From positions 1 through 40,129 of the forward strand of contig CAIXXP010000251.1 of the NCBI GenBank assembly GCA_903923465.1: a DNA stretch of 40,129 bases, written 5' to 3'. How positions within the stretch are numbered: position 1 is the stretch's first letter; each line of letters starts with the position of its first letter. The stretch comes from an uncultured Sphingomonadales bacterium. GTDB lineage: Bacteria; Pseudomonadota; Alphaproteobacteria; Sphingomonadales; Sphingomonadaceae. Positions 14,439 to 34,621 of the stretch are shown here, piece after piece. The translations under genes were made by a program, and so were the position numbers. Below the pieces are notes generated by a model. The model saw only the letters and a list, made by a program, of their open reading frames with translations, did no database searches and had not been told where the DNA came from.

Positions 14439-15383
14439 ATGGCAACCGATACACCCAAAACGATCGTCTCCATCGTCGGTCTCGACAAGACCTACAACGG
14501 TGGCCACCACGCGCTAAAGTCGGTCGATCTGGAAATCTACCGTGGCGAGATCTTCGCCCTGCTGGGGCCAAACGGTGCCGGGAAGACGACGCTGATCGGC
14601 ATCGTTTGCGGGCTTGTCCGCGCCACCGGCGGCACGGTAATAGCCGACGGCCACGACATCGCGCATGATTATCGCGCCGCGCGGGCGAAGATCGGGCTGG
14701 TGCCGCAGGAATTGTCGACCGACATGTTCGAGACGGTGTGGCACTCGGTGAATTATAGCCGCGGCCTGTTCGGAAAGCCGCGCGACCATGCCCATGTCGA
14801 GCAGGTGCTGCGCGATCTTTCGCTGTGGGAGAAGCGCAACAGCAAGATTGGCGCGCTCTCCGGCGGGATGAAGCGCCGCGTCCTGATCGCGAAGGCCTTG
14901 TCGCACGAGCCGACGATCCTGTTCCTGGACGAGCCGACCGCTGGTGTTCACGTCGAACTGCGCCGCGACATGTGGGAAATGGTCCGTGCCCTGCGCGATC
15001 GGGGCGTCACCATCATCCTCACCACCCATTACATCGAGGAAGCCGAGGAGATGGCTGATCGCATCGGTGTGATCGATGGGGGAAAGATCATTTTGATCGA
15101 GGAGAAGCACGCGCTGATGCAGAAGCTTGGACGGACGCGTGTGACCATCGGATTAAATGAACGGCTCGATGTGATACCCCCGGCGCTGGCCGACGAACGC
15201 CTCGCGCTGGCCGACGATGGGAGGTCGCTGGTGCTCACCCTGATGGGAGAGGACGATGGCGCGACCGGCGCCGCCGATCTGATCAAGCGGCTCAGTGCCG
15301 AGGGCGTCGAATTCCGTTCGATCGATACGGCGAGATCGTCGCTCGAGGATATTTTTGTCGATCTGGTGGAGAAGCGGCCATGA
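14439..15383 (+). CDS. ABC transporter ATP-binding protein (YadG-like)
   Basis: Walker [15 protein letters not shown], signature [15 protein letters not shown], Walker [13 protein letters not shown]-loop [19 protein letters not shown]. Confidence 0.95.
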
Positions 15384-16141
15384 ACCTGTACGCGGTGCGC
15401 GCCATCTACACGTTCGAACTGGGTCGCACGATCCGGACCCTGTTTCAGAGTCTGGCCTCGCCGGTGATATCCACGTCGCTGTATTTCATCGTGTTTGGAT
15501 CCGCCATCGGATCACGGATGCATACCATCGACGGCGTCAGCTATGGCGCCTTCATCGTGCCGGGCCTGATCATGCTCGCATTGCTGACAGAGAGTGTTTC
15601 CAACGCTTCGTTCGGCATCTATCTTCCGCGCTTCACCGGCACGATCTACGAATTGCTGTCGGCACCGGTATCGGCGTTCGAGGCGCTGCTGGGCTATGTC
15701 GGCGCGTCGGCAACAAAGTCAGCAATTCTGGGCTTCATCATCCTGGGCACAGCGCGGTTATTCGTCCCGTTCGAGATAATTCATCCCTTTTGGGCATTCG
15801 CGTTTTTGATCCTGATCTCGGTCAGCTTCAGCCTGTTCGGCTTCATCCTGGGGCTATGGGCCGACGGCTTCGAGAAGCTTCAGGTCGTGCCGATCATGAT
15901 CATAACGCCGCTCACATTCCTTGGTGGCACCTTTTATTCGATCTCGATGCTGCCGCCGGCTTGGCAGACCGTTACGATGTTCAACCCGATCGTTTATCTG
16001 GTGAATGGCTTCCGTTGGTCGTTTTATGGCCATTCGGATGTTGGCGTCCTATTCAGCGTGGGCATGATCATCATGTTCATGGCCTTGTGCGTCGCGATCA
16101 TCGCCTGGATCTTCAAGACCGGCTGGCGCCTGCGCACCTGA
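15380..16141 (+). CDS. ABC-2 type transporter permease (YadH-like)
   Basis: ATGA overlap with the ATPase; multiple TM helices; [41 protein letters not shown]. Confidence 0.93.
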
Positions 16142-16492
16142 AAATCGTCGGGCACGACCGCTTTGATGGCCACTGGCGCTGGAGGCCGCTGAGGGCAACA
16201 GCCACTTGACGCGGCGGCGACACGCCGTCCGGGCCCGGCGCCATGGCGGCCATTAGTGCCGCCGCGCCGATTACCGTGTTGCCGCCATCCCTTCGCGTTC
16301 CGCCAGAGGCTCGATCCGGGCGCATTGCCGGGCCGGGTCCGTCCAGTCGCTTCACGCTCCTTGCGCGTGAGCGTGGGTGTCGGAGCATTTGCCTTCAGTT
16401 TTCGAACGGCCCGCACGCCTTCCGCGCGGGCCGCTGGCAACACCGCGCCAATCTGGTAGACGCTGATACACCAACAGATCGGTTCAATCTCA

Positions 16493-17167
16493 ATGCGCTT
16501 GCTTCTTGTCGAGGATGACGCGGCACTGGCTGCCGCGCTGATCGCCGATCTCAACCGGCGCGGCTTTGCGAGTGATGCCGCCGTCAACGGCGAGGATGCC
16601 GCGCACTTCCTCCAAACAAGCCAGTATGGTGCGATGATCCTCGACCTTGGCTTGCCCGATGGCGACGGGCTGGATCTGGTCCGCAAGCTGCGCGCGCAGG
16701 CCGATCCCTTACCGGTATTGGTGCTCACGGCCCGGGGCGATCTGGAATCGCGCATCGTCGGGCTCGAAGCCGGCGCTGACGATTACCTTGCAAAGCCCTT
16801 TTCTCCCGACGAGCTGGTGGCGCGGTTGCGTGCCATCCTGCGGCGCGGAGGCACCTACCAGGGGCGCGAGATCGTGTGCGGCAATCTTGCCTTCGATACC
16901 GACAACACGCAGCTGACGGTTGCAGGACAGTCGGTTGCTGTATCCCCGCGAGAGGCAGCGCTACTGGACCTGTTATTGCGCCGCACAGGCCTCGTTGTTA
17001 CCAAACGCCTCGCGGAGGATCAGTTGTTCGGTGCTCAGGACTTGCTCGGCTCCAACGCCATCGAGGTCTATGTCCATCGCCTGCGGCAGAAGCTCGACGC
17101 GGCGGGCAGTTCGGTGGAGATCGTCACCATTCGCGGTGTCGGCTATCTGCTGAGGCCGGCGGCATGA
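16493..17167 (+). CDS. OmpR/PhoB-family response regulator
   Basis: MRLLLVEDDAALAAAL, MILDLGLPDGDGLDLV, VLTARG, ADDYLAKPFSPDELVARLRA; C-terminal winged helix ending IEVYVHRLRQKLDAAGSSVEIVTIRGVGYLLRP. Confidence 0.96.
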   Translation: MRLLLVEDDAALAAALIADLNRRGFASDAAVNGEDAAHFLQTSQYGAMILDLGLPDGDGLDLVRKLRAQADPLPVLVLTARGDLESRIVGLEAGADDYLAKPFSPDELVARLRAILRRGGTYQGREIVCGNLAFDTDNTQLTVAGQSVAVSPREAALLDLLLRRTGLVVTKRLAEDQLFGAQDLLGSNAIEVYVHRLRQKLDAAGSSVEIVTIRGVGYLLRPAA

Positions 17168-18540
17168 TCGCCAAAACCAGGCTGCTGTCGGGTTCGCTGC
17201 TGACGCGCATCCTGGTCGTGGAGGCGTTGACCATCGTGGCCGCCTGTATCGCGCTGCCACTGCTTGCGCGCGGCATGCTCACCAACAGTGTCACCCGCAT
17301 CGAGAACGACCTTCTGCTCGGCCAGGCCGAAACCGTGGCCAGAGGCCTCAGCCATGCATCAGGATCGGCGCCAGGTGCCGGTTGGCATGTCGACCTCGGC
17401 GAGGCGCTGCGGCCGATTTACGCCACTGGCTATGATGGCCGCGCCTTTGCCGTAGTCGACGCGCAGCATCACCTGTTGGCAGCGAGCCGCTATGCGTCGC
17501 CGGCGCTGTGGCCGCCAATGCCGTATTCCGCTCATATGCAACGCTTCGAGACCGGGTCTCTGGTTGGCCTCCGGTTGCCGGTCGAAGTCGATAGAGCGCG
17601 CCTGTGGGTGGTGGTGACACAGGACCAGACACGTCCCGGCGCTGTGGTCGATGATGTCGTCCGTGCCTTTCTGCCGCGCTACCTTGTCGGGCTGGTGGCT
17701 CTGCTGCTGCTGATGCCGCTGATTAACGGGATCATCCTGTGGCACTCCTTCCAGAAGCTGCGCCGGGTTGCCCACGAAGCCGGGGCAATCAGCCCGCAGG
17801 CCCTGCACGCCAGACTGGACGAGAGCGGGCTGCCCTCCGAGGCACGCGCGCTGGTGCGGGCCACCAACGAACTGCTGGAGCGGGTGCAGGCCGCGTTTCA
17901 CCTGCAGGAAGAATTCGCCGGCAATGTCGCCCATGAATTGCGCACGCCGCTGGCCGCGCTGAGGGTACAGATCGGGCTGATTGATGACGGGCCGGTACGC
18001 GATACCATGATCCGCCAGATCGAGCGTATGTCGCATGTGCTCTCGCAATTGCGCGATCTGGCGTCGCTTGAAAGTGCCAACAGCGCCGAGATGGCCGCAC
18101 TGGACCTTTCGGAACTGGTGATCGGGCTCGTCGCCGAGATGACGCCAGAGATCCTCAACCAGGCGCGCAGTATCGCCGTTGTCGGTGAGGAACAGGCGAT
18201 CCTGGTGCTTGGCAACCGCGTGCAGATCAATATCGCGCTGCAAAACCTCATCGACAATGCGCTCAAGCACACGCCGGGTGGCCACCATATCGAGGTCAGC
18301 CTGGGGGCCGAGGGCAGCGTCCGGGTTGCCGATGATGGCCCTGGCATTGCGGAGGATGATTCCCCGCATCTGGTGCGGCGTCTGTGGCGCGCCGATCAGC
18401 AGCGCAGCGATGGCGCCGGGCTTGGCTTGTCGATCGTGCAACGCATCGTGGATTCTCATCACGGCCGGCTGGAGATCGGCAGGTCGGCCAGGGGCGGGGC
18501 GTTGTTTTCGCTGATTCTGCCGCTCGCGCCACGCCCGTAA
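17164..18540 (+). CDS. sensor histidine kinase
   Basis: ATGA overlap with the regulator; H-box FAGNVAHELRTPLAALR, N-box LQNLIDNALKHTPGG, G-boxes VADDGPGI and GAGLGLSIVQRI. Confidence 0.95.
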   Translation: MIAKTRLLSGSLLTRILVVEALTIVAACIALPLLARGMLTNSVTRIENDLLLGQAETVARGLSHASGSAPGAGWHVDLGEALRPIYATGYDGRAFAVVDAQHHLLAASRYASPALWPPMPYSAHMQRFETGSLVGLRLPVEVDRARLWVVVTQDQTRPGAVVDDVVRAFLPRYLVGLVALLLLMPLINGIILWHSFQKLRRVAHEAGAISPQALHARLDESGLPSEARALVRATNELLERVQAAFHLQEEFAGNVAHELRTPLAALRVQIGLIDDGPVRDTMIRQIERMSHVLSQLRDLASLESANSAEMAALDLSELVIGLVAEMTPEILNQARSIAVVGEEQAILVLGNRVQINIALQNLIDNALKHTPGGHHIEVSLGAEGSVRVADDGPGIAEDDSPHLVRRLWRADQQRSDGAGLGLSIVQRIVDSHHGRLEIGRSARGGALFSLILPLAPRP

Positions 18541-18603
18541 GGCGCCTGTAAGCATCGCCTCGTAGGGCCGGGGGAGCTTCGCTGAACAGGCCGCCCTCCA
18601 CTG

Positions 18604-19809
18604 ATGACCGATATCACGACCCACGAAAGCGGCGCCGGGCAGGATACCCCGATATTCGAGCTGGATGCGGCCCGGCAAAAGCGGGTGGTGATTGGCGCTG
18701 TTCTGGCGGTGGTCGTGCTGTTCTGGGGTGCGCCCGCGGCTTGGCACGCGCTGTTTCCGCCGCCAGCCGAAGCGCCCCCCGCGGCCGACGATGGCACCTT
18801 TGCCGCCACGCAGAAGCAATGGGAAACCCTGCGCTTCGAGACAGTGCATCGCCAGAACCTGCAAAACGCGGTCACCACGGACGGCAAGATCGCGGTGGAC
18901 GATGACCACACCACGCAGGTTTTCTCGCCGTTCACCGGCCGCGTCACCCGCGTTTTCGTGCAGGCTGGCGACAGGGTAAAGGCGGGCTCGCCGCTGTTCG
19001 CGGTGGTCGCCAACGAGGCCGCGCAAAGCGACGCCGACATTCTGGCCACCACCGCCCAGTTGCAAGCGGCGCAAGCCGCCGAGGCCCGCCAGCACGATCT
19101 GGTGCAGCACGATGGCGCCGCGATAAAGGACTGGGAACAGTCCAGGGTCGATCTGGCAACGGCGCAGGGGGCCGCCGCCGCCGCCCATGCGCGCCGGCAG
19201 GCGCTTGGCGCCAGCATCGCCCATGGCGAGGCCATTGTGCGCGCGCCGGTGGGCGGCGTGGTCACCCAGCGGCTGATCGGCGTCGGGCAGAACATCGCCA
19301 GCGCGGCCGGCGGCGGGGCGACGCAGGCCTTCACCATCAGCGATTTCACCAAGGTCTGGGCCGTGGGCAACCTGCGCGAGGAAGACGCCGGCAAGGTCCA
19401 CGTCGGGCAGGAGGCGCTGGTTACCCTGCTGGTCGACCCCAGCCACCCGATCCACGCGCGCGTCAGCTATGTGGCACCCATGCTGGACCCTGTGTCGCGA
19501 CGCCTGACCGTGCGCGCGGTGCTCGACAATCGCGACGGCCGCCTGAAGCCGGAAATGTACGCCAGCTTCGCCTTGCTCACCGGGGGCGGCCAAACCATGC
19601 TCTCCGCGCCCGAAAGCGCGGTGATCTTCGAGGGCAGCACCGCCCGCGTGTGGGTGGCGCGCGCCAGTGATCATCACCTGGGGGTAAGGGCCGTGCAGAC
19701 CGGGGCCACGGTGGATGGCCGGGTGGAGATACTGGACGGGCTGAAGGACGGCGAAACGGTGGTTACCGCCGGTTCGCTGTTCATCGACCGCGGCGCCAGG
19801 GCCGATTGA
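18604..19809 (+). CDS. efflux RND transporter periplasmic adaptor subunit (CzcB-like)
   Basis: One N-terminal TM segment; FSPFTGRVTRVFVQAGDRVKAGSPLFAV, IVRAPVGGVVTQRLIGVGQNI, ILDGLKDGETVVTAGSLFIDRGA. Confidence 0.92.
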   Translation: MTDITTHESGAGQDTPIFELDAARQKRVVIGAVLAVVVLFWGAPAAWHALFPPPAEAPPAADDGTFAATQKQWETLRFETVHRQNLQNAVTTDGKIAVDDDHTTQVFSPFTGRVTRVFVQAGDRVKAGSPLFAVVANEAAQSDADILATTAQLQAAQAAEARQHDLVQHDGAAIKDWEQSRVDLATAQGAAAAAHARRQALGASIAHGEAIVRAPVGGVVTQRLIGVGQNIASAAGGGATQAFTISDFTKVWAVGNLREEDAGKVHVGQEALVTLLVDPSHPIHARVSYVAPMLDPVSRRLTVRAVLDNRDGRLKPEMYASFALLTGGGQTMLSAPESAVIFEGSTARVWVARASDHHLGVRAVQTGATVDGRVEILDGLKDGETVVTAGSLFIDRGARAD

Positions 19810-19833
19810 GGCCAGCGCCATGAAGCCCCGCCG

Positions 19834-22800
19834 ATGAACCCCATTGTCGCCTTTGCCCTGAAGCAGCGCCTGATGATCCTGGCGCTGCTCGGCCTGTTCC
19901 TCGTGGGCGGCATCATCGCCTTCCGCATCCTTAACATCGAGGCCTATCCAGACCCGGTGCCGCCGATGGTCGAGGTCGTCACCCAATCCAGCGGCCAGTC
20001 GGCGGGCGAGATCGAGCGGGCGATCACCATCCCCATCGAGATCCAGCTGGCGGGCATCAAGAACGTCAAGAAGGTGGAGACCATCTCGCTGTTCGGCCTG
20101 TCGGACGTGCGGGTGCAGTTCACCTATGATTACGGTTACGAGGAAGCCGAGCAGAAGGTCATCAACGCGCTGACCCAGTTGCCCCCGCTGCCGGGCGGCG
20201 CGCAGCCGGGCATCTCGCCGGAAAGCCCGATTGGCGAGATCTATCGCTATCGCATTGCCGGCCCGAAGAACTACTCCGTCACCGATCTGAAAACCCTGCA
20301 GGACTGGGTGCTGCAGCGCCGGTTCAAGGCGGTGCCCGGCGTGGTGGATGTCAACGGCTGGGCGGGCAAGAGCAAGACCTATGAGGTGACGATCGACCAG
20401 CACAGACTGGTGGCCTATGGCCTGTCCATCGGCCAGGTGCTCACCGCGCTGAACAATGCCAACGGCAATGTCGGCGGGCAGACCATCAACCTTGGGCCCC
20501 AGGCGGCGGTGGTGCGCGGCGTCGGCCTGATCCACACCATGGATGACATCCGCGACACGATGATCGTGGCCAACAATGGCAAGCCGGTGCAGATCAAGGA
20601 CGTCGCCACCGTGCAGGTGGGCAATCAGCCGCGCCTCGGCATCGTCGGGCAGGATAACGACGACGACATCGTCCAGGGCATCATCCTGATGCGGCGCGGC
20701 GAGGAAAGCCTGCCGACACTGCAGCGCGTCGAGGCCGAGGTCGACAAGATCAACGCCGAGGGCATCCTGCCGCCGGGCGTGCATCTGGTGAAGATCTACG
20801 ACCGCACCGACCTGATCAACGTGACCACCCATACCGTGCTGGAAAACATGGTGGTGGGCGTGGTGCTGATCTTCCTGGTGCAGTGGATTTTCCTGGGCAC
20901 CTTCCGCAGCGCGGTCATCGTGGCGGCCACCATCCCCTTTGCCCTCGCCTTTGCCATCATCATCATGGTGTTGCGGGGGGAATCCGCCAATCTGCTGTCG
21001 GTGGGGGCGATCGATTTCGGGCTGATCGTCGATGCCACGGTGATCATGGTGGAGAACATCTTCCGCCACCTCAGCCAACCGCGCCACGACCGCTTCCAGA
21101 AGGGTGGCGCGCTGGATCGGCGCGGCGGCATCCAGAGCTTCTTCGGCAAGCTGGGCACTATCGAGCTTTCCGCCGCCGAGGTGAACAAGGCGATCTTCTT
21201 TGCCGCCGCCATCATCATCGCCGGCTTCCTGCCGCTGTTCACCCTCACCGGGGTGGAGGGCCACATCTTCGGCCCGATGGCGCGCACCTATGCCTATGCG
21301 ATCATCGGCGGGCTGGTGGCCACCTTCACCGTCGCCCCGGTGCTTTCGGCCCTGTTGCTGAAGGACAGGGAGGAGGAGAAGGAAACCGCAATCGTTCGCC
21401 ACATGCGCCGCGTGTATGATCCGGCGCTGCGCTTCGCGCTGGCCAACCGCACGGTGGCGCTGGGCGGCATGGGCGCGCTGCTGCTGGCGGCTATCATCGC
21501 CGTCTCCAGCCTGGGCATGGAGTTCCTGCCGAAGCTGGAGGAGGGCAACTTCTGGATCCGCGCCACCATGCCCCAGTCGGTCAGCCTGGAGGAGGCGCAG
21601 GGCTACGCCAACCGCATGCGCCACATATTGATGAAATATCCCGAGGTGCAGACCGTGGTCAGCCAGTTGGGTCGCCCCGATGATGGCACCGACACCACCG
21701 GCTTCTTCAACGCCGAATTCTATGTGCCGCTGAAACCCACGCGCGACTGGCCCAGCGGCATGACCAAGGAAAAGCTGACCAGGCAGGTCAGCGAGGAACT
21801 GGCCGCCCCATTCCCGGGCGTGGAATTCGAATTCTCGCAGAACATCGAGGATAACGTCGAGGAAGCGGCCAGCGGCGTGAAGGGGCAGAACTCGGTCAAG
21901 CTCTATGGCAACGATCTGGTGGCCTTGGAAAAAACCGCCAATCAGATCAAGGGCATCATGGCCGGGGTGCGCGGCATCACCGATATGTCGGTGTTCGATG
22001 CGCTGGGCCAGCCGACCATCAACATCCGGATCGACCGCGACAAGGCCGCGCATTACGGCCTGGCGCCCGGCGATGTGAACGCGGTGGTGCAGGCGGCCAT
22101 TGGCGGCCAGAGCGCGGGCAATCTTTACGAATACGGCTCGGATCGCAATTTCCCGATCATGGTTCGCCTCGCCCCCCACTTCCGCCAGAGCCTCGACGCC
22201 ATCCGCGCCATTCCGGTGGCGGTGCCCAACGCGGCCGGCGGAACCTCGCAGATTCCGCTTTCCACCGTGGCGGATATCCGCCTCGAGTCCGGCTATTCCT
22301 TCATCTACCGCGAGAACCAGTCGCGCTATATCCCCATCGGCTTTGCCGTGCGCGGGCGCGATCTCGGCAGCGCCATTCTGGAGGCGCAGGCCAGGATCGA
22401 CAAGCAGGTGGTGCTGCCACCGGGCGCCCGGCTGGAATGGGTGGGCGAGTTCGGCGAGCTGCAGGCGGCGATGGCCCGGCTGGAGGTCGTGGTGCCGATC
22501 AGCTTCCTGGTGATCGGGCTGCTGCTGTTCCTCAATTTCGGCTCGTGGCGCGATACGCTGCTGGCGGCCAGCGTGATGCCGATGGCGCTGGTGGGCGGCA
22601 TATTCGCGCTGTTTTTCACCGGCACGCCGTTCTCGGTTTCGGCGGCGATCGGCTTTATCGGCCTGTTCGGCATTTCGGTGATGGGCGGCATTCTGGTGCT
22701 GTCCTGCTATAATCAGCTGCTGGGCACCGGCATGGATCGCAGCGCGGCCGTGCTGCATGCCGCGCGCACCCAGTTCCGCCCGGTGATGATGACCTGTGTG

Positions 22801-23052
22801 GCCGCCTGCGTCGGCCTGCTGCCGGCGGCGGTGGCCACGGGCATCGGCAGCCAGGTGCAAAAGCCGCTGGCGCTGGTGGTGGTGGGCGGCATCCTGCTGG
22901 CGCCGGTGCTGATCCTGATCGTGCTGCCGGTGATGATCGAGATGTTTTCCAACCGGCGCCCGCGCGCCGAACAGAACGGCGTGGATTGGTTCGAGGACAA
23001 GCCGGCGCGCAAGCCCGATGCCGATGGCCCCATTCCCGAGGGCGGCGCATGA
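19834..23052 (+). CDS. efflux RND transporter permease (CzcA/CusA-like subfamily)
   Basis: 1072 aa; NIEAYPDPVPPMVEVVTQSSGQSAGEIERAITIPIE, TM4 DFGLIVDATVIMVEN, GFIGLFGISVMGGILVLSCYNQL. Confidence 0.94.
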   Translation: MNPIVAFALKQRLMILALLGLFLVGGIIAFRILNIEAYPDPVPPMVEVVTQSSGQSAGEIERAITIPIEIQLAGIKNVKKVETISLFGLSDVRVQFTYDYGYEEAEQKVINALTQLPPLPGGAQPGISPESPIGEIYRYRIAGPKNYSVTDLKTLQDWVLQRRFKAVPGVVDVNGWAGKSKTYEVTIDQHRLVAYGLSIGQVLTALNNANGNVGGQTINLGPQAAVVRGVGLIHTMDDIRDTMIVANNGKPVQIKDVATVQVGNQPRLGIVGQDNDDDIVQGIILMRRGEESLPTLQRVEAEVDKINAEGILPPGVHLVKIYDRTDLINVTTHTVLENMVVGVVLIFLVQWIFLGTFRSAVIVAATIPFALAFAIIIMVLRGESANLLSVGAIDFGLIVDATVIMVENIFRHLSQPRHDRFQKGGALDRRGGIQSFFGKLGTIELSAAEVNKAIFFAAAIIIAGFLPLFTLTGVEGHIFGPMARTYAYAIIGGLVATFTVAPVLSALLLKDREEEKETAIVRHMRRVYDPALRFALANRTVALGGMGALLLAAIIAVSSLGMEFLPKLEEGNFWIRATMPQSVSLEEAQGYANRMRHILMKYPEVQTVVSQLGRPDDGTDTTGFFNAEFYVPLKPTRDWPSGMTKEKLTRQVSEELAAPFPGVEFEFSQNIEDNVEEAASGVKGQNSVKLYGNDLVALEKTANQIKGIMAGVRGITDMSVFDALGQPTINIRIDRDKAAHYGLAPGDVNAVVQAAIGGQSAGNLYEYGSDRNFPIMVRLAPHFRQSLDAIRAIPVAVPNAAGGTSQIPLSTVADIRLESGYSFIYRENQSRYIPIGFAVRGRDLGSAILEAQARIDKQVVLPPGARLEWVGEFGELQAAMARLEVVVPISFLVIGLLLFLNFGSWRDTLLAASVMPMALVGGIFALFFTGTPFSVSAAIGFIGLFGISVMGGILVLSCYNQLLGTGMDRSAAVLHAARTQFRPVMMTCVAACVGLLPAAVATGIGSQVQKPLALVVVGGILLAPVLILIVLPVMIEMFSNRRPRAEQNGVDWFEDKPARKPDADGPIPEGGA

Positions 23053-24479
23053 TCCGCCCGGCCGGTTCCCTTGCCGCGCTCGTTCCGGCCATGGCATTAG
23101 CCGCCTGCGCCGCCGGGCCGGATTTCCACGCGCCCGCGCCGCCCGCCCAACAGGCCTACACCCCGCAGCCCATCACCACCGCTGGCGAGCAAAGGCTGAG
23201 CCCCGCGCCGGTGGATGCCCGCTGGTGGACGCTGTTCGGCTCCCCCGAGCTGAACGCGCTGGTGGATCAGGCGCTGGCGGCCAATACGGATCTCGCCGCC
23301 ACCCGCGCCGCGCTGAAGGCCGCGCGCGAAAGCTGGCTGGCCTCGCGCGGGGCCCTGCTGCCCACGGTGGATGCCTCTGCCGGCACCAGCCGCAACAAGG
23401 GCACCGCGTATCTGGCTCCGGCCCTCAGCAACAACAGTTTCGACTATAATCTGCAAACCGCGCAGGTAACCGTCGGCTACACGCTCGATCTGTTTGGCGG
23501 TATCCGGCGGCAGGTTGAATCCGCCCGGGCACAATATCTGGCCCAGCGCTATCAGGCCGAAGCGGCGCGGATCTCGCTGATCACCAATGTCGTGGCCGCC
23601 GCCTTCCAGCAGGCTTCACTGCGCGATCAGGTTGCCGCACAGGCCCGCGTGGTGGCGCTGGCGGAGCAGCAGGCCACCATCACCCGCCGCCAGTTGGCCG
23701 ACGGGCAGATCGCGGGCACCGATGTCATGGCACAACAGGCCGCGCTCGCGCAGGCCCGGCTGGCGCTGTCGCCGCTGCGCAAGGCTCTGGCGCAGGCGGA
23801 CGACCAGCTGGCCTACCTCACCGGCCGTTCACCCGCCGACCCGGCGCTGCCCGGGGTGGATCTGGCCCGGGTCACGCTGCCCCACGCCCTGCCGCTCAGC
23901 CTGCCCGCCGAACTGGTGCGCCAGCGCCCGGATGTGCGCGCGGCGGAAGAGAACCTGCATGCCGCCAGCGCCCAGCTGGGCGTGGCGATTGCCGCGCGCC
24001 TGCCGCAGATCACGCTGGTGGCCAGTGGTGGCGGCTCGGCGGCGAATTGGGCCAATCTGCTGGGTCCGGCGAATACGTTCTGGACGCTGGGGGCCGGTAT
24101 CAGCCAGCCGGTCTTTGCCGGCGGCGCGCTGCTCCACCGTCAGCGCGGCGCGCAGGCGCAGCTGGATCAGGCCCGCGCGGTCTATCGCTCTGCCGTGCTC
24201 ACCGCGTTTCAGAACGTGGCCGATACGTTGCATGCGCTGCGGGAAGACGCCGATGCCCTCGCCGCCGCCGAGGCCGCCCGCCACAGTGCCGAGGCCAGCT
24301 ATGCCGTGGCCCAGCGCCAGCACGATATGGGCGAGGCATCGCTTGTCGCGGTCATCATCACCGAGCAGGCCCTGCACGCCGCCCGGCAGACCGCAACACA
24401 GGCGCAGGCGCAGCGCCTGTCAGACACCGCCGCCCTGTATCAGGCCCTCGGCGGCGGCTGGTGGAATCAGCCGGCGTAA
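23049..24479 (+). CDS. outer-membrane efflux lipoprotein (NodT/TolC-like)
   Basis: Lipobox ALAAC; ARWWTLFGSPELNALVDQALAANTDLAATRAALKAARE; LTGRSPADPALPGVDLARVTLPHALPLSLPAELVRQRPDVRAAEENL. Confidence 0.94.
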   Translation: MIRPAGSLAALVPAMALAACAAGPDFHAPAPPAQQAYTPQPITTAGEQRLSPAPVDARWWTLFGSPELNALVDQALAANTDLAATRAALKAARESWLASRGALLPTVDASAGTSRNKGTAYLAPALSNNSFDYNLQTAQVTVGYTLDLFGGIRRQVESARAQYLAQRYQAEAARISLITNVVAAAFQQASLRDQVAAQARVVALAEQQATITRRQLADGQIAGTDVMAQQAALAQARLALSPLRKALAQADDQLAYLTGRSPADPALPGVDLARVTLPHALPLSLPAELVRQRPDVRAAEENLHAASAQLGVAIAARLPQITLVASGGGSAANWANLLGPANTFWTLGAGISQPVFAGGALLHRQRGAQAQLDQARAVYRSAVLTAFQNVADTLHALREDADALAAAEAARHSAEASYAVAQRQHDMGEASLVAVIITEQALHAARQTATQAQAQRLSDTAALYQALGGGWWNQPA

Positions 24480-24559
24480 AGGGCCGACCAGCCCCCGCAG
24501 CCAGCGAATGGCGAAAATGGCGACTGAACAGGGCAAGCCGCGCGCGACGAACGAACCGC

Positions 24560-24714
24560 GGATGATCGGGTAAAGGTCAGATTGGCGGCCATCATGGAGC
24601 CAACGCGCCTGCTCGCCAGCGCCCGCCATTCGCCCGCGCGGCAAAGTACGGAGGCCATCCGCCATAATGATCCGCCGACCCTCGGGCTTGGCATTTCGGA
24701 TTGGTAAGCGCCAT
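24560..24714 (-). pseudogene. decayed 5' remnant of a DUF4102-type tyrosine integrase gene
   Basis: Minus strand ATGGCGCTTACC-A-ATCCGAAATGCCAAGCCC...ATCATTATGGCGGAT aligns with the intact integrase ATGGCGCTCACAGACATAGCAATCAGGAACGCCAAGCCG...ATCAAGTTGGCGGAC. IRNAKP....I..AD is retained with synonymous differences, after an 8-nt frameshifting deletion. A later HDGRQ...YP resembles IDGRE...YPE. Confidence 0.8.
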
Positions 24715-24764
24715 ATTCCGCCACTTTCCTGGCAAGTGCCCCCCCCATGGCGGCCACCTCGACC

Positions 24765-24920
24765 ATACCCCAGCGCATGGCCCCCAATAGATGGTGGCTC
24801 TAGGTAGACGCTGTTGGACGCGGGTGGCCTGACAAGTGCAGGAATTTGAAGGTTTTCCGGGGATCGGCCAGACGAATACGGACGTCTACGAACAGGGGGC
24901 TGGAGCGGTAGCGGGAACCG
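24765..24920. repeat. left copy of the attachment-region direct repeat
   Basis: Contains CCAGACGAATACGGACGTCTA (24868..24888), identical to 34515..34535. Flanks align without gaps at offset 9647 and end in a degenerate tRNA-Gly 3' end (TGGAGCGGTAGCGGGAA). Confidence 0.85.
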
Positions 24921-25214
24921 CAAAAGCCCCTAAAAGTAACGCATTTCAGCCATTCTTAAGGAGCGTTATTAGACGCATACCCCCAATCATACCCCCAATT
25001 GTGCCGGATGGGGGCGAACGGTGGCGGCTATCTCTTCCCGGATCAGGCGTCGCGTGCCGTGATGTTCCGTGTTCCGGACAGGATGGTTTCGGCAGTGATC
25101 TTCAGTCGGCTGCCATCGGTTCAGTTTGTCAGACTATGCTCCCTCCAGACTGTTCTTGTGTTCTGAAAATCCAGCGCTAATCGGTTAGCGGTAATCCGTC
25201 CAAAGGAGGCATTT

Positions 25215-26033
25215 GTGCCTGATTTCAAGCCCACGCTCCTCGTATATACTTGGGACGGGTCATCACCACCGCTCGACTTGGTCGTTAAGGACGCCGCGCC
25301 TGATTTCGACCTCCTGCTGTTTGACTATAGCGGCAAGGCGACACCTCCGGAGGGCATCGCGGTGCTCTCGGTGAAGACCGAGTGCAAGGGCGAAATTTAT
25401 CGTGAAGTCCACCGCTGGCTCGCCGCCGCTGCAACTGGCTATGAGTACGTTGGCCTGCTGGACGACGATATCGAGACCAGCTGGTCCGATATCAACCGCA
25501 TGCTGGAGATCGCGCGCGCGCGCGGGCTCGACAGTTTCGCCGCCAGTCTCAGTGCCGATAGCTACCACTCTCACGCCAAATTCCTGCACAAAGCCGGTGG
25601 CGATGTGCGGCCGATCGACTGGGTAGAGGTGATGATGCCATTCTATCGTACCGAGCTGTTTATGGCTGGAGGCGCATACTATGCGGATTCGATCTCGTCT
25701 TATGCGCTCGACCAGTTCGTCATGACGGCGTTGCAGAAGCTGACCGGATACAATCGCGTGGCCGTGATCGACGCGATTGTCGCCCGGCACCGGCGCCCGA
25801 TCACCAGCGACGACAAGGTTTTTGCGAATGGTCTCACCGCACAGCAGGAACGTCCGATCCAGAGGCGCAAGGCCATGGCGCAGGTAGCTGCCCAGCGACC
25901 TGACCTGTTGGGCTCGCGCTGGTATTTCCAGACCTTCTCGCCATGGTGTGGCCCTGGCCGCTTCTGGCCGCTGCGGCTGCTTGCGCCATGGTTGTGGCTG
26001 CGGGCCCTTCCACACCGCCGGTCGCGGGAGTAG
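25215..26033 (+). CDS. DUF707 family protein (putative glycosyltransferase-like)
   Basis: YEYVGLLDDDIETSWSDINRMLEIARARGLDSFAASLSADSYHSHAKF...WVEVMMPFYRTELF...VIDAIVARHRRP; GTG start with AAAGGAGG SD at 25202. Confidence 0.78.
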   Translation: MPDFKPTLLVYTWDGSSPPLDLVVKDAAPDFDLLLFDYSGKATPPEGIAVLSVKTECKGEIYREVHRWLAAAATGYEYVGLLDDDIETSWSDINRMLEIARARGLDSFAASLSADSYHSHAKFLHKAGGDVRPIDWVEVMMPFYRTELFMAGGAYYADSISSYALDQFVMTALQKLTGYNRVAVIDAIVARHRRPITSDDKVFANGLTAQQERPIQRRKAMAQVAAQRPDLLGSRWYFQTFSPWCGPGRFWPLRLLAPWLWLRALPHRRSRE

Positions 26034-26059
26034 GCCGCCCCACGCCCACGCCCAGTTTG

Positions 26060-26938
26060 CTAGGGCGCGGGGTGCGTTTCTGCCAGCCTCAAAAGATATT
26101 TCCCGTAATTCGTTTTTTTGTAAAGCGTGCCCAGCGCCACAAGCTGATCACGATCGATAAAGCCCTGAGCATAGGCAATTTCCTCCAGGCAGGCGATTTG
26201 CATTCCTGTGCGTTTCTGAATGGTGCGGACAAATTCCGATGCCTCGATCAAGCCATCGTGCGTGCCGGTATCCAGCCAAGCATAGCCCCGTCCCATGATT
26301 TCGACATGGAGCGAGTCATCCTGCATGTACATGCGGTTGATATCGGTAATTTCCAGTTCCCCCCGCGCGGAAGGACGCACCCGGGAGGCAAAATCCACCA
26401 CGCGGTTGTCGTAGAAATACAATCCCGTCACCGCGTGGCTGGACTTGGGAAGTTCCGGCTTTTCCTCGATGCTGACCGCCCGGCCTTGGCCATCGATCTC
26501 GACCACGCCATACGCACTCGGATCATCCACGTGATAGGCGAAAACGGTGGCGCCAAGGCTGCGCGCGCGCGCGTGCCCGATCAGCTCGGTGAGGTGCGCG
26601 CCAAAAAAGATATTGTCTCCCAGAACCAGCGCCACCTGGTCCGAGCCAATAAAGTCCGCGCCAATCAGAAACGCCTGCGCCAGGCCCTCGGGTCTCGGCT
26701 GGATGGCATAGCTGATTGTCAGCCCCAGCGCGCCGCCGTCGCCAAACAACTTGTGATAATTGTCGATATACTCCGGCGACGAGACGATCAGTATCTCGCG
26801 AATGCCGGCCATCATCAGCACCGAGAGCGGATAATAGATCATCGGCTTGTCATAGACCGGCAGCAATTGCTTGTTGATCGCGAGCGTGGCGGGGTGGAGG
26901 CGGGTTCCCGAGCCACCGGCAAGAACTATCCCTTTCAA
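26060..26938 (-). CDS. rmlA: glucose-1-phosphate thymidylyltransferase
   Basis: [58 protein letters not shown] start at 26938 just after the rmlD stop. Confidence 0.96.
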
Positions 26939-26942
26939 AGTA

Positions 26943-27827
26943 CTATCCTTTGAGGCGCTGATCGAGGACAGCGCCAATCGCAGTCTGCCAATCGCGCGGC
27001 GTAAAGCCGAAGTTAGTTGTGAAATTGTCGATTGCCAGCACCGAGTTTGCCGGGCGCCTTGCCGGTGTTGGGTAGTTTGCGGTCGCGATGCGGTTAAGCG
27101 TGGGCGTCTGGAGACCGGCGGCGGCGGCGCGCGCGAAGACGAAGGCGGCAAGGTCAAACCACGTCGCCTCACCACCATTCACAAAGTGCCAAATCCCGCT
27201 GGCAACCGATCGCTCGGTGAGGGCGCGCGTCAGGACCAGCAAAGCGGCGGCAATGTCGTCGGCCGATGTGGGGCAACCGAACTGGTCGTCCACCACCGAC
27301 ACCACATCGCGCTCGGCCCCGAGGCGGAGCATGGTATTGACGAAGTTCCTGCCCTCGACACTGATCACCCATGCCGTGCGCAGGATGGCGTAACGGCAAC
27401 CACTCCCGGCGATAGCCCGCTCTCCGGCCAGCTTGGACGCGCCGTATATGTTGATGGGGCTGGTCAGGTCGCTCTCGGCATAGGGCCCGGTCTTGCTGCC
27501 GTCGAATACATAGTCAGTTGAGACATGGATGAGCGGGATATCCAGCCCTACAGCGATGCGCGACAGGACTTCGGGCGCCACCGCATTGCAGACATAGGCT
27601 TCCTCCGGCGTGGCTTCCGCCTGATCAACAGCGGTAAAGGCCGCGCAGTTGATGATGGCATCATAACCACCGGCAGCCAGATAGGCGGCCATGCTCCGCG
27701 CATCGGCCAGATCGAACGTCTGGCGCGGCGGCGCCTCAACCGCATAGCCCTGTGCCACAGCCAGCGCCGCCACGGCGCCACCCACCTGCCCCGATACTCC
27801 CGTGATCAACAGGCGCAGGGCATTCAC
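26943..27827 (-). CDS. rmlD: dTDP-4-dehydrorhamnose reductase
   Basis: [54 protein letters not shown] overlap with rmlB. Confidence 0.95.
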
Positions 27828-28894
27828 TGGGCTATCCCCAGCCGCTCGCCCCGGTAAGCGCCGGACAGAATGTCGCGCCACCAGCTTTCATGGTCCAGAT
27901 ACCACGAGATCGTCTTGGCGATGCCGCTCTCAAAGCTCTCCTGCGGGCTCCAGCCCAGCGTGTCGCGGAGCTTGCTGGCGTCGATGGCATAGCGGAAATC
28001 ATGGCCGGGCCGGTCCGCCACGAAGGTAATCTGGCCACGGTACGAGGCGCCATCGGCGCGCGGGCGCAACCTGTCGAGTGCGTCACACAACGTGTGCACC
28101 ACAGCCAGATTGGTCCGTTCCGAGCTTCCGCCGACCATATAGCTTTCACCAACACACCCGCGCTCGAATACCGCGACCAGCGCACGCACATGATCATCGA
28201 CATACAGCCAATCGCGTACATTGCCGCCGGTGCCATAGACGGGGAGGGGTTCACCCGCCAACGCCTTGATGATCATGAGTGGGATAAGCTTTTCGGGAAA
28301 ATGGTAAGGGCCATAATTGTTCGAGCAGTTGGTAATCAGCACCGGCAGGCCAAAGCTGTGATACCATGCTCGCACCAAGTGGTCAGACCCGGCCTTTGAT
28401 GCCGAATAGGGCGAGCGCGGATCATAGGCGGTGGCTTCGGTGAAATGCCCCTCGTCCCCCAACGCACCAAAGACTTCATCCGTCGATATGTGGTGAAAGC
28501 GGAAAGCCTCCCGCCTACCGGCAGGCAGGGCCTTCCAATAGTCGTGCGCGGCCTGCAATAGCGTGAATGTGCCCACCACATTGGTTTCAATAAAGGCGGC
28601 CGGCCCATCCAGCGAGCGGTCCACATGCGATTCAGCGGCCAAATGGGTGATGATGTCGGGCTGAAATTCCGCCACCAGCCGCGACATCTCCAGCCCATCG
28701 CACACATTTGCCCGCACAAAGGCATAGCGGTCGGAATGGGCGGTGCTGGCCAGCGACGACAAATTGCCGGCATATGTCAGCGCATCAATGTTCAGCACGC
28801 GGTGCGGTGTCTCGGTGATGAGATATCGCACGAGCGCCGAGCCGATAAAGCCGGCGCCCCCAGTGACGATGATGCGGTGCAATTTTTCCGCCAT
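27824..28894 (-). CDS. rmlB: dTDP-glucose 4,6-dehydratase
   Basis: [78 protein letters not shown]. Confidence 0.97.
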
Positions 28895-29469
28895 TACGCA
28901 GTGATTTCGCTGATTTCGAGCGGGCGCCCGTCATAGGCAAAATCGACATCCGTCTGGCCAAGAAACGGCAGCGCGGCGTCCTTATCCGACAGCAATGGGG
29001 CAGTGATTCCGCCTGGCAGCGACCAGACTATACCGATTTCCGGATCATTCCACGCGATGCCGCCCTCGGCTGCGGGGGCATAATGCGCGTTCACCTTGTA
29101 AGCGACCTCGCAATCGGGCTCCAGCGTCAGGAAACCATGCGCATAGCCTTTGGGGATCAGCAGTTGCAGTCCATTTTCAGCACTAAGTTCCCGCCCAACC
29201 CATTGCTTGAAGGTTGGCGATTGCGGCCTGACATCAACCGCGACATCGAAAATGCGCCCCCGTAGGCAGCGCACCAGTTTCGTCTGCGCGAAAGGTTCCC
29301 GCTGAAAATGTAGGCCGCGCAACGTGCCCGCCGCGCGCGAAAGCGAGTGGTTATCCTGACGCCAGTCACTCTCCAGCCCGGCGGCGGCAAACCGCCCCGC
29401 ATGATAACTTTCGGCAAACCAGCCCCGGCTATCGGAAAACCGGCGGGTGGCTATTTGGTAAACACTCAT
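28894..29469 (-). CDS. rmlC: dTDP-4-dehydrorhamnose 3,5-epimerase
   Basis: [86 protein letters not shown] overlap with rmlB. Confidence 0.96.
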
Positions 29470-29801
29470 TTTAAATTCGCACCTCTGCCTTGCGCTCGCC
29501 GTCACAAAAGCAAGCGATTGGCCCCCAAATCCCTTGCTCCGTGCCCAGCCGCTAACCCCGCAAGGACTGCCTACAGCGCATCTCTCCCAGAAGGCAATCT
29601 CCACCGGGAAATTATCGCGACCCCCAACCAGCCGACGCTAGTGCGTGCGGGGGGCATAGTGCTCGGCCGTTTGCGGGGCGGCGCATGCACCAGGCGACCA
29701 GACAGGTCCCGATAGGGTGGCGATTGAGAAAAACCGCGTGACTGGCCGCACGGTAAGCCATAGCGGGTACCCAGCAAGTGCTCGGATAAGGCTGCGCTCC
29801 C

Positions 29802-30776
29802 ATGACTGCTTCCCTGTCATCCCCCTGCCCGGTGTGCGGCGCTCCATCGCGGGTGCTGGAGCCCACCGTCGAAGATGTCTTTTTTGGCTACCCCGGCACT
29901 TGGAAACTGGACCGCTGCACCGCGCTGGACTGCGGCATTGTCTGGATCGTCAACCCGCTGCCGGCGGATCAATTGGCCGCAGCCTACGCCAAGTATTACA
30001 CCCATGACGCGCGTCCGCCATCCCCACTGGAAGTGGGCTTCGGCCGCTGGATTGGCCGGCGTTGCCGCCGTCATGGCGACCGCTTTCCCGCACTGCCCTT
30101 CCTGTTCCGCGAAGCCGAAAACCGCCTGCTCGATTCCGGCGCCATCCCTCCCGATCCAAACGGCCTCGCGCTGGATGTCGGCTGCGGTGCGGGCGAGAGG
30201 CTGGATTATCTGAAAGCTATCGGCTGGGGCGAATCCGAGGGCATCGACCCCGATCCCGTCGCCGTGGCGCGGGGGCGGCTGCGGGGGCGCCGCGTCCATA
30301 CCGGCACGGCCGAGGCCATCCCGATGGCTGAGCACACGGCCGACATCATCTTCCTCCATCATGTCGTTGAGCATCTGGCCGATGTCCGCCCGGCCATGGC
30401 CGAGGTGGCGCGCGTGCTGCGCCCGGGCGGGCATGTCGTGATCACCACGCCCAATCCCGATGCGGCGGGCCGAGCGCGATGGGGCCGCTGGTGGCGCGGC
30501 TACGAGGCGCCCCGGCACCTCAGGCTATATACGCTGGTAGCGTTACAGCGCGTTCTGTCGGAAGCGGGCTTTTCTGTCCGTTATGCCCGCACATCGGCAC
30601 GCGCCTTACCGTTCATGACCAAGGCTGCTGCGGGCGCCACCGGTACGGCGCTTGCTCGGGCATGGGCGCGCTGGTGGCTGGATGATCGCGGTATCCTTGC
30701 CGCCAATGCGCGCATTCGCAGCGGCGAAGAAACGGGCGAGGAACTTTTTGTCGTGGCACAGGCACCATGCCCCTGA
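29802..30776 (+). CDS. class I SAM-dependent methyltransferase with N-terminal zinc-binding motif
   Basis: CPVCGAPSRVLEP, LALDVGCGAGERLDYLKAIGW, IFLHHVVEHLADVRPAMAEVARVLRPGGHVVITTPN. Confidence 0.88.
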   Translation: MTASLSSPCPVCGAPSRVLEPTVEDVFFGYPGTWKLDRCTALDCGIVWIVNPLPADQLAAAYAKYYTHDARPPSPLEVGFGRWIGRRCRRHGDRFPALPFLFREAENRLLDSGAIPPDPNGLALDVGCGAGERLDYLKAIGWGESEGIDPDPVAVARGRLRGRRVHTGTAEAIPMAEHTADIIFLHHVVEHLADVRPAMAEVARVLRPGGHVVITTPNPDAAGRARWGRWWRGYEAPRHLRLYTLVALQRVLSEAGFSVRYARTSARALPFMTKAAAGATGTALARAWARWWLDDRGILAANARIRSGEETGEELFVVAQAPCP

Positions 30777-30879: not shown

Positions 30880-31986
30880 CTATGCTAGCCCGCCCCCCGA
30901 CATCTGCCGCATCGCCGCCATCACCTTGGCGATATAGGCCGGATCAACCGCATCGGCTGTCCGGCTGGCCCCCATGCCCCGGATCAACTCCGCCTGTCGG
31001 TGCGGGGCCACCGCGCCATAGCTGGTCAGGGTGGTCATCACCTTTTCATGCCCAAGGTTTTGCGACCATGCCTTGAACGCCTCAATGTTGGGGCAAATCT
31101 TCTCGCCATGCTGCACCAGCGTGTCGCGGAAGGAATGCGGGTTAAAATAGGGCAGGCCAGCCGCTTGGAACGCCGCGCGGAATATGTCCCGCACTGGCCC
31201 GGCGCTTTGCCAGCAATCGCGACGAAGCCCCACCGCAACAAAGCCGCCATTCTCACCCAGCCCGATTTGCGTGGGTGGGAACAGCGGGTCGCCATCACCC
31301 CACAGCAGATTCTCGCGCAGGTGCTGGCACCAGTCCCGCATAATCGCCGGGGCCTCGTCGCCCACGGGGAAAAACCACGTCGAGAAAGTCTTGCTGGCCT
31401 TGGTCCGCACGTCGCGCGCATCCTGATCGACGCGCCCCTGCACCAGATCGACGTGCTTCAGCCGAAACGACGCCAACGCCCCATCGCGTGCCCCGGTCAT
31501 CAGGGCGAAGGCGATCAGTGCCCGGTTGCGCTTTTCGATGTCGGTGCCGCTGGGCATGGTGGCGAGGACATGGTGGACCTGTTCCACCGTGGGGAATGGC
31601 TTGAGATGCACCGCCTTGGCAATCCGCACGTCCTTTTCCGATAGATTGAAGTAGTCGGCATCGGCGTAGCTGATCCGCTTCTTGTAGCCCGGTTGCCCAG
31701 CCAGCCAGACAAAGAACGCCCGCAAGGCTGACAGGATGGAATGGACGGTGGCACGGCTCAGTGGCTTGCCAGTGCGGACGGCGGCTTGGGCATCCAGCTT
31801 GCGCTTGAAGGCCACCGCCTGCTCCCGGTGAAAGCTCTTGAAGTCCTTGTGCCCGTTGGCCTCCTCAAAGCGTGCCAGCGCCTTGGCGATGGCATCAATG
31901 GAGGTCTCATCCCGGCGCTTGGCTTCCTTCAGATATTGGAAGTATTCGCGCTTGATCCGGGCATTTGCGGCGTTGTGTTTGGCCAT
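30880..31986 (-). CDS. second tyrosine recombinase/phage-type integrase
   Basis: N-terminal SAM-like core-binding region; catalytic residues in MTGARDGALASFRLKHVDL (R), HSFRDTLVQHG (HxxR), LGHEKVMTTLTSYG (H..Y). Confidence 0.88.
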   Translation of the reverse strand: MAKHNAANARIKREYFQYLKEAKRRDETSIDAIAKALARFEEANGHKDFKSFHREQAVAFKRKLDAQAAVRTGKPLSRATVHSILSALRAFFVWLAGQPGYKKRISYADADYFNLSEKDVRIAKAVHLKPFPTVEQVHHVLATMPSGTDIEKRNRALIAFALMTGARDGALASFRLKHVDLVQGRVDQDARDVRTKASKTFSTWFFPVGDEAPAIMRDWCQHLRENLLWGDGDPLFPPTQIGLGENGGFVAVGLRRDCWQSAGPVRDIFRAAFQAAGLPYFNPHSFRDTLVQHGEKICPNIEAFKAWSQNLGHEKVMTTLTSYGAVAPHRQAELIRGMGASRTADAVDPAYIAKVMAAMRQMSGGGLA

Positions 31987-31992
31987 GGTCTG

Positions 31993-32496
31993 TCAGTCCT
32001 TCTGATTGTCACAATTTAGGGAGGGGGTGGTGCGCCCTATTAGGCGTGGCCCTGCCTCCCTGATTTGGACCTCCAGATTCGGCATTATGGTGCCGAGAGA
32101 GGCCATGCTGGCGCGGCGGTGCATCATGGTGCCACATTGCCCACAAAGGGCGCTCAGGTCGCCCGTGGTGGCCTTCCCAAGGGTAAACTCCACCATACCC
32201 AAAGCCGGGGGCTGCGGTTGGCGGCACCGGAAGCAATAGATCGTGCCGGGAGGGCAGGGCCGCTTGCGGCTGGCAATGCGCTTGGCGAGGAAGGCGCGAA
32301 CGGTTGCCCCGTCGAACAGGGTGGGGCGGCCCGTGGCGATGGCCTCCAGTCCGTTGGCCTGCCAGTGGCGCACGGTGTTCTTGTGAATGCCAAGGCAGAT
32401 TGCCAGTTCGGGTGCGCTGTAGCAGCGGTGCAGCTTCACCCGCTGCGGATTGGCCCGGCGCGAATGCACGGGCTTTGTGTGATCATCGATCATCAA
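31993..32496 (-). CDS. helix-turn-helix protein with C-terminal zinc-ribbon-like motif
   Basis: CYSAPELAICLGIHKNTVRHWQANGLEAIATGRPTLFDGATVRAFLAKR is HTH-like; YCFRC...CGQC is a two-CxxC motif; 7 bp from the recombinase gene, same strand. Confidence 0.78.
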   Translation of the reverse strand: MMIDDHTKPVHSRRANPQRVKLHRCYSAPELAICLGIHKNTVRHWQANGLEAIATGRPTLFDGATVRAFLAKRIASRKRPCPPGTIYCFRCRQPQPPALGMVEFTLGKATTGDLSALCGQCGTMMHRRASMASLGTIMPNLEVQIREAGPRLIGRTTPSLNCDNQKD

Positions 32497-33103: not shown

Positions 33104-34336
33104 CTAAGCTGCCCCCGACTCGGGAAAGGGCAGAATATCTGCACCCTTGCGCAGCATATCGAGGTAATCACTCCACCATTGCGCCATTAACACCCGCTCG
33201 GCCCAATGCGTCCCGCGATGATAGGCCGCGCGCACCTTGTCGGTGTCGCCATGGGCCAGCGCCCGCTCGATTGCGTCGGAGTGCCATTTGCCACTTTCGT
33301 TCAGCAAGGTTGAGGCCATCGCCCGGAAGCCATGCCCGGTCATTTCGTCGCTGGCATAGCCCAGCCGCCGCAGCGCCGCGTTGATCGTGTTTTCGCTCAT
33401 CGGGCGGGAACGGGTGCGGATGGATGGGAAAACGTATCCGGTTGGCCCACTGGCAGCCAGCACCTCCCGGAACAGTTCCACGGCTTGGCGAGACAGCGGC
33501 ACATGGTGGGCCTTGCGCATCTTCATCTTGCCCGCCGGAATGATCCACAGTGCGCCCTCCAGATCAATCTCTTCCCATTCCGCATGGCGCAATTCGCCGG
33601 GCCGAACAAACACATGCGCGGCAATCTGCATCGCCTGCTTGGTCAGCCCCTGCCCCTCATAGCCATCGATGGTCCGCAGCAATTCCCCCACCTTCTTGGC
33701 ATCAGTGATAGCGCCATAATGCGTTACCGTCGGGGAGGTCAGCGCGCCTTTCAGATCGCGGGTCGGATCAGACCGCAACCGTGCAGTGGCCACGGCATAG
33801 CGAAACACCCCGCTGGCTAATTGCAGTGTGCGCCGGGCGCTTTCCAGAGTGCCCTTACTTTCGATCTTGCGGACCGCTGCCAGCACGTCCGCCGGTTCAA
33901 TCTCGGCAATCGCCAAGCGTCCGATTGTGGCCGACAATCGCCCTAGCAGATATTCGCTGCGACTGGCCGTGGCCGGTGCCCATCCCTTCTCGCCATCCCG
34001 CTTGCGCTTGGTGCAATATTCGTCGGCAATGGCGGCGAAGGTGTTCTCGGCCTGAATGCGGGAATTGACCTTCTCCCGCTGCTTTTCACGCGAAGGGTCT
34101 TTGCCAAGGGCTATCAGTTCGCGCGCCTCTTCCCGCCGCTTGCGCGCTTCGCTCAGGCTGATTTCAGGATAGGCACCAATCGCCAGCAGCTTCTCACGCC
34201 CATCAATGCGATATTTGAGCCGCCACAGTTTGCCACCAGCCGGTGTCACCAAAAGGAACATCCCACCGGCGTCCGCCAACTTGATCGCCTTCGCGCCCGG
34301 CTTGGCGTTCCTGATTGCTATGTCTGTGAGCGCCAT
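33104..34336 (-). CDS. tyrosine integrase with N-terminal DUF4102 arm-binding domain (P4-type family)
   Basis: MALTDIAIRNAKPGAKAIKLADAGGMFLLVTPAGGKLWRLKYRIDGREKLLAIGAYPEISLSEARKRREEA; catalytic VRPGELRHAEWEEID, GHGFRAMASTLLNE, ALAHGDTDKVRAAYHRG. Confidence 0.95.
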   Translation of the reverse strand: MALTDIAIRNAKPGAKAIKLADAGGMFLLVTPAGGKLWRLKYRIDGREKLLAIGAYPEISLSEARKRREEARELIALGKDPSREKQREKVNSRIQAENTFAAIADEYCTKRKRDGEKGWAPATASRSEYLLGRLSATIGRLAIAEIEPADVLAAVRKIESKGTLESARRTLQLASGVFRYAVATARLRSDPTRDLKGALTSPTVTHYGAITDAKKVGELLRTIDGYEGQGLTKQAMQIAAHVFVRPGELRHAEWEEIDLEGALWIIPAGKMKMRKAHHVPLSRQAVELFREVLAASGPTGYVFPSIRTRSRPMSENTINAALRRLGYASDEMTGHGFRAMASTLLNESGKWHSDAIERALAHGDTDKVRAAYHRGTHWAERVLMAQWWSDYLDMLRKGADILPFPESGAA

Positions 34337-34370
34337 GGTTTCCCCAATCATTCAGGGCACTGCGCCCCAA

Positions 34371-34394
34371 GATACCCCCAAGGCTGGGGGTATC
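34371..34394. promoter_or_regulatory. perfect hairpin in the integrase leader containing two opposed ATACCCCCA motifs
   Basis: GATACCCCCA-AGGC-TGGGGGTATC. Confidence 0.6.
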
Positions 34395-34411
34395 GAATTG
34401 ACCGTTGGAAT

Positions 34412-34621
<210 letters not shown>

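Follow-up and report, generated by a model that had tools for sequence, protein, structure and literature searches.

Remains of an older integrase end outside the distal core of a tRNA-Gly(TCC) island suggest tandem accretion in a Novosphingobium genome

The window analysed here, a stretch of 40,129 nucleotides from an uncultured member of the Sphingomonadaceae, carries a 9.6 kb island between 24.9 kb and a tRNA-Gly(TCC) gene, and the remains of another element lie just outside the distal boundary of this island. Similarity to intact integrase ends shows that positions 24655-24920 derive from an older island, of which they retain the int-proximal end: the start of the integrase gene (int), a P arm and a core that repeats the tRNA 3' end. 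Read from the tRNA, the new island comes first, then the core and the int end of the older element, an arrangement that supports insertion of the newcomer next to the tRNA, in front of an older resident. It is very probable that an island with a G-type integrase arm first occupied tRNA-Gly(TCC), that its int decayed, and that an island with an A-type arm then inserted there, separating the old P arm from the tRNA.

The source genome is a draft of 299 contigs (88.9% complete), and the contig is unbroken across the junction at 24.9 kb. It belongs to the genus Novosphingobium, whose genomes were used for the genus comparisons. The tRNA-Gly(TCC) gene lies near apt in most genus genomes examined, and related integrases are found at it in several of them. 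The resident island has the layout of DUF4102 (Arm-DNA-bind_3) tRNA islands, with int by the tRNA 3' end and a core repeat at the far end, which is also seen in many relatives. Two main types of arm occur in this integrase family, with repeats TACCCCC (A type) or GGCCCCC (G type), and no arm among 80 named loci has both. The features of the target and of the resident island are as follows.

34548-34621, minus strand: tRNA-Gly(TCC), target gene of both insertions (ARAGORN).
34548-34555, plus strand: TGGAGCGG, tRNA 3' end, identical to 24901-24908; putative strand-exchange block at the int-side junction.
34352-34547, minus strand: P arm of the resident island, A type, with four TACCCCC motifs and no GGCCCCC.
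33104-34351, minus strand: intact integrase of the resident island, 415 aa (Pfam Arm-DNA-bind_3, Phage_int_M, Phage_integrase).
31993-32496, minus strand: 167-aa protein beside the second recombinase, without Pfam or NCBIfam match.
30880-31986, minus strand: second tyrosine recombinase, 368 aa (Pfam Phage_integrase and SAM-like domain).
25215-30776: cargo, namely rmlA, rmlD, rmlB, rmlC, a methyltransferase and one further, unassigned ORF at 25215-26033 (Pfam).
24974-25027, plus strand: P' arm of the resident island, A type, with TACCCCCA at 24978 and 24990 (motif scan).
24901-24925, plus strand: distal core TGGAGCGGTAGCGGGAACCGCAAAA, the island boundary.

The three domains of the resident integrase lie in one protein (Arm-DNA-bind_3 93.1 bits, central domain 84.9, catalytic domain 78.6; Pfam). 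TACCCCC repeats are present at both ends of the island: the P arm scores 301 bits with the A-type HMM, versus 195 with the G-type one, and the P' arm scores 18.0 bits with the A-type HMM. About a dozen related islands out of 80, inserted at various tRNAs, likewise have a second tyrosine recombinase and the small adjacent protein downstream of int; relatives of the 167-aa protein occupy this place in 13 of 81 loci compared, the window counted. A further DUF4102 integrase is encoded elsewhere in this genome (contig C210, 38-990); it is 80% identical over 225 residues and lies beside a glycine-type tRNA end, on a contig that stops near the middle of int.

The older element is represented by three stretches left of the core.

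24715-24900, minus strand: P arm of the older element, G type according to the HMM and the tree, with GGCCCCCA at 24779.
24655-24714, minus strand: 5' end of a fossil DUF4102 (Arm-DNA-bind_3) integrase gene, about 20 codons, with an 8-nt deletion between 24703 and 24704.
24480-24654: spacer between the stop of an efflux gene and the fossil, without detectable integrase similarity.

A profile of arm and int built from 14 int ends, the fossil excluded, matches 24657-24919 with E = 1.4e-30 in a search of the loci collected. The significance of the separate pieces was assessed with 1000 dinucleotide shuffles per segment. The score of 24657-24849 is 55.0 bits (shuffles at most 3.7), and that of its arm part, 24715-24849, is 24.9 bits (shuffles at most 2.2). 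The preliminary description had proposed such a comparison as a way to refute the fossil in 24560-24714; this segment scores 10.1 bits, the shuffles reach at most 3.1 and none of the 1000 is as good. Indeed, the int, arm and near-core parts each beat all 1000 shuffles when taken separately. Against 200 family genomes, the whole stretch 24480-24925 gives, beyond its own genome, just short matches that are mostly at chance level.

The fossil itself largely agrees with that earlier reading. The start codon is present at 24714-24712 on the minus strand, the 8-nt deletion is where it had been seen, and the motifs IRNAKP and I..AD are there; compared with the element of N. cyanobacteriorum, IRNAKP is encoded by identical codons, without even synonymous changes. 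The relic had been drawn from 24560, which is about 95 nt too generous: 24480-24656 does not match the arm and int profile, and nothing homologous was detected left of 24655. Likewise, a gapless repeat of the resident end had been described back to 24765, but the similarity is strong only between 24850-24920 and 34497-34568 (85%, with one gap). Of the two arm-like motifs pointed out in it, CCCCCA at 24781 belongs to a real repeat, GGCCCCCA, whereas ATACCCC at 24765 is a poor one, with four C, and the nearest relatives differ there in the multiple alignment. A second, degenerate repeat, GTGCCCCCC, lies near 24736, and alignment with the int ends of relatives indicates that this P arm has been shortened.

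Several observations bear on the origin of the relic. Its arm and int start score 95 bits with the G-type model and 78 with the A-type one. Among 196 genus genomes, the best match to 24660-24925 is the intact int end of N. cyanobacteriorum (69% over 259 nt, covering 24684-24920, E 8.6e-21), and the second best is that of genome G383 (E 1.6e-19), so intact relatives of the older type do exist. The int end of the resident island ranks behind both. In the tree, the fossil groups with the ends of N. cyanobacteriorum and G383 and with a relic of G382 (support 0.98), apart from the resident type. The G-type arm and this grouping imply that the relic derives from a different element rather than from duplication of the resident one.

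The possibility that 24.65-24.92 kb is a duplicated copy of the resident int end, produced by internal duplication or aborted excision, has in its favour the 72 nt nearest to the core, which resemble the resident arm more closely than they do the G-type relatives. The resident end matches the relic over these 72 nt only; the arm and int start are closer to the elements of N. cyanobacteriorum and G383, the arm repeat is GGCCCCC and not TACCCCC, and the IRNAKP codons are exactly those of N. cyanobacteriorum. A duplication is thus very improbable. That the similarity arose by chance in G+C-rich DNA can practically be dismissed: the int-coding part is indeed short (about 60 nt, 8.9 bits by itself), but neither the shuffles nor the E value of the profile match is compatible with chance, and the relic sits exactly beside the core.

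The core shows how the two elements may have been joined. Past the shared TGGAGCGG, the tRNA has GGG and the distal core has GG, one base apart. That the left core (TGGAGCGG-TAGCGGGAACC) differs by this single base is not a sign of decay, since the same first 19 bases are found exactly in 11 other genus genomes, and all 25 in genome G052. Sequence comparison identifies this 19-mer as the P'-side core carried by these elements, which lacks one base compared with the tRNA end (GCTACC-GCTCCA versus GCTACCCGCTCCA). In nearly all Gly-targeting elements, the element-borne core is one base of the tRNA acceptor stem short, and the cores of Phe-targeting and some Thr-targeting elements are likewise shortened.

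Only a crossover within the shared CCGCTCCA, at the 3' terminus of the tRNA, keeps the tRNA whole before and after insertion, and strand exchange therefore probably took place there. If so, everything left of 24901 is pre-existing DNA, i.e., the old P arm and int start, and the distal junction is a hybrid, because the new island came to lie in front of the old P arm, next to the tRNA. According to this proposal, an older island with a GGCCCCC arm would have entered the 3' end of tRNA-Gly(TCC), with int beside the tRNA, and its integrase would then have been reduced to about its first 20 codons. A second island, with a TACCCCC arm, would have entered the same 3' end, so that at the junction the P' arm of the new element would be followed by the core and then by the older P arm and int start. 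Consistent with the tandem accretion put forward earlier, the core at 24901-24925 separates the resident island from the int end of another element, which has the same orientation, as expected of an older resident.

Left of the fossil, accessory genes (NCBIfam names) may represent surviving cargo of the older island.

14439-24479, plus strand: accessory genes, possible cargo of the older island, comprising
14439-16141, plus strand: ABC exporter;
16493-18540, plus strand: response regulator/kinase;
18604-24479, plus strand: CzcB, CzcA and a NodT/CzcC-type protein (czc metal-efflux operon).

Relatives of the czcC-type gene with at least 60% identity are found in 3 of 60 genus genomes. The ABC-2 permease (15380-16141) is 91% identical to that of genome G011, while glnE identity between these genomes is 61-64%, which points to recent horizontal transfer of the permease; its best match in the sister genome G017 is just 32%. 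It is plausible that the czc operon was carried by the older island. In the window, neither a second core (up to 5 edits) nor paired GGCCCCC motifs or a G-type P' arm could be convincingly recognized left of 24.9 kb. The czc operon is therefore only proposed as cargo and, as the far att site of the older island was not found in the window, the claim is limited to the remains of an accretion. The lack of this site is expected if the older element decayed. The integration genes are lost, about 20 int codons being left, but of attL and attR, both of which a CIME keeps, just the tRNA-side arm and core were found, and the remnant is thus not called a CIME.

The distance between the tRNA and panC is 0.7-1.7 kb in genomes G004, G021 and G036, and 31 kb in the window. 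Part of these 31 kb is older chromosome, since glnE, panC and parA are already adjacent in the closest relative, G017; for the same reason, the glnE-panC-parA junction is placed outside the islands. The use of glnE as a guide to the ancestral neighbourhood was dropped, because this gene is elsewhere in distant relatives.

Two variants of the proposed history concern the fate and the arrival of the older element. It may have disappeared by deletion or imprecise excision, leaving its int end and core as a scar to which the czc genes are merely adjacent. No distal core lies left of 24.48 kb, the efflux gene stops 175 nt from the fossil, and every old integrase among the relics examined is cut off within about 60 codons, all of which would fit; the patchy distribution of the czc genes and of the ABC exporter, and a permease so similar to the copy of a distant species of the genus, are what would be expected of cargo. 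The chances of such a scar are appreciable, if somewhat short of even. Alternatively, the fossil and the resident island could have arrived together, as one composite formed elsewhere. Excision and transfer of entire composites is possible (PMC5704250), but nothing in the window favours this, and a composite would need a far core of its own, which was not found; a joint arrival is accordingly considered improbable.

The layout of the window, best accounted for by two successive insertions at the tRNA, recurs in other genomes. With the core as a probe, 50 distinct distal junctions were gathered from the genus set and a family sample, and about 9 of them have an int-end relic outside the core that scores at least 25 bits. 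A core followed by a truncated int end is found in N. cyanobacteriorum (104 bits), G045 (155), G382 (199), G408 (79) and G261 (53), and in weaker form in L204 (Erythrobacter tepidarius) and G026. Of 2709 control segments, just a few score high, perhaps because they are further int ends of those loci. Near-core similarities of about 40-60 nt at L313, L327, L321, L219, L189 and L294 are not counted as relics, because they are too short to type.

Other loci also show several integrase remains. At a tRNA-Gly(TCC) in G382 (L266, contig C203, 300-2264), a decayed int of 70 codons is followed, 1.3 kb further on, by a second relic int end that is close to the fossil of the window; both are GGCCCCC-like, and the locus is not counted as a stacked pair because the core between the two is lost. 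In N. sediminicola (L242, 8323-11221), two nearly full-length related integrases are in tandem behind one tRNA-Gly(CCC). Decayed integrase fragments lie directly at the same tRNA-Gly(TCC), without a newer island in front, in G029 (L108, 17257-17633) and G011 (L118, 3549-4043). In G261 (L307, contig C54, 1312-1449 and 18213-18400), a further integrase fragment (residues 332-377, 87% identical) lies 17 kb past the relic int end, possibly a case of three layers of insertion.

The newcomer is of A type and the relic of G type in the window, in G261 and, weakly, in L204; it is the opposite in N. cyanobacteriorum, G045 and G382. In G408, a relic with a third motif, GGGCCCTC, accompanies a G-type newcomer. 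G358 is a possible like-with-like exception, of which just the 118 nt nearest to the core are present, and no arm type can be assigned to the relic of G026. The two types thus differ in 5-6 of 6-7 typed cases (P about 0.03-0.06). At the observed, nearly equal frequencies of the types, the chance is 0.03 for 5 of 5, 0.015 for 6 of 6 and 0.06 for 6 of 7. As the pattern was first noticed in some of the same cases, the mismatch is a lead rather than a result, and as a general pattern it is suggestive only. Equal arms would turn the junction, which consists of the new P' arm, the core and the old P arm, into a complete and active attP that recombination would remove; with unequal arms, the hybrid junction would be locked. 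That stacking is tolerated only, or mainly, when the arm types of newcomer and resident differ is nevertheless rather doubtful.

Tandem accretion itself is already well known. Insertion, decay of the resident integrase and a second insertion at the same gene end have been spelled out as three steps for ICEs, IMEs and CIMEs (PMC5704250). The accretions related to ICESt1 described there resemble the window in their site-specific insertion by a gene end, int decay and second insertion; they are streptococcal, whereas the integrases of the window are DUF4102 proteins of Sphingomonadaceae, the older resident of the window keeps its P arm and int start while its second att site was not found, and no conjugation genes were seen in the island. 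In Dehalococcoides, several islands lie in tandem downstream of ssrA, each bounded by repeats of the 3' end, and some have no integration genes (PMC3146451), as in the window; there, however, the enzyme is a serine recombinase (CcrB-like) and not a tyrosine integrase with arm sites. Similarly, composite islands form by tandem accretion at asn-tRNA genes of Klebsiella pneumoniae, with two unlike integrases from distinct groups (74% identity in group XI; PMC4891358), but both integrases are kept, whereas the older one of the window is a 20-codon relic. A further comparable case is the tRNA-Gly(TCC) island of N. cyanobacteriorum HBC54 (NZ_JAROCY010000002.1), at the same tRNA, which harbours the closest intact relative of the fossil and also shows a relic int end beyond its distal core, with the arm types reversed. 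No papers on tRNA islands of Novosphingobium or sphingomonads, or on accretion in connection with arm-binding sites, were found in the literature collection searched. Only the arm-type pattern might be new.

The window shows the growth of an island hot spot, in which the order of insertion can be read from a hybrid attachment site. The 19-nt P'-core pattern is a usable probe to survey such junctions in Sphingomonadaceae; the reversed control of its CCC form has no matches in any genome searched. Should the arm-type pattern be borne out by a larger number of cases, it would predict in a simple way which islands are able to occupy a tRNA together.
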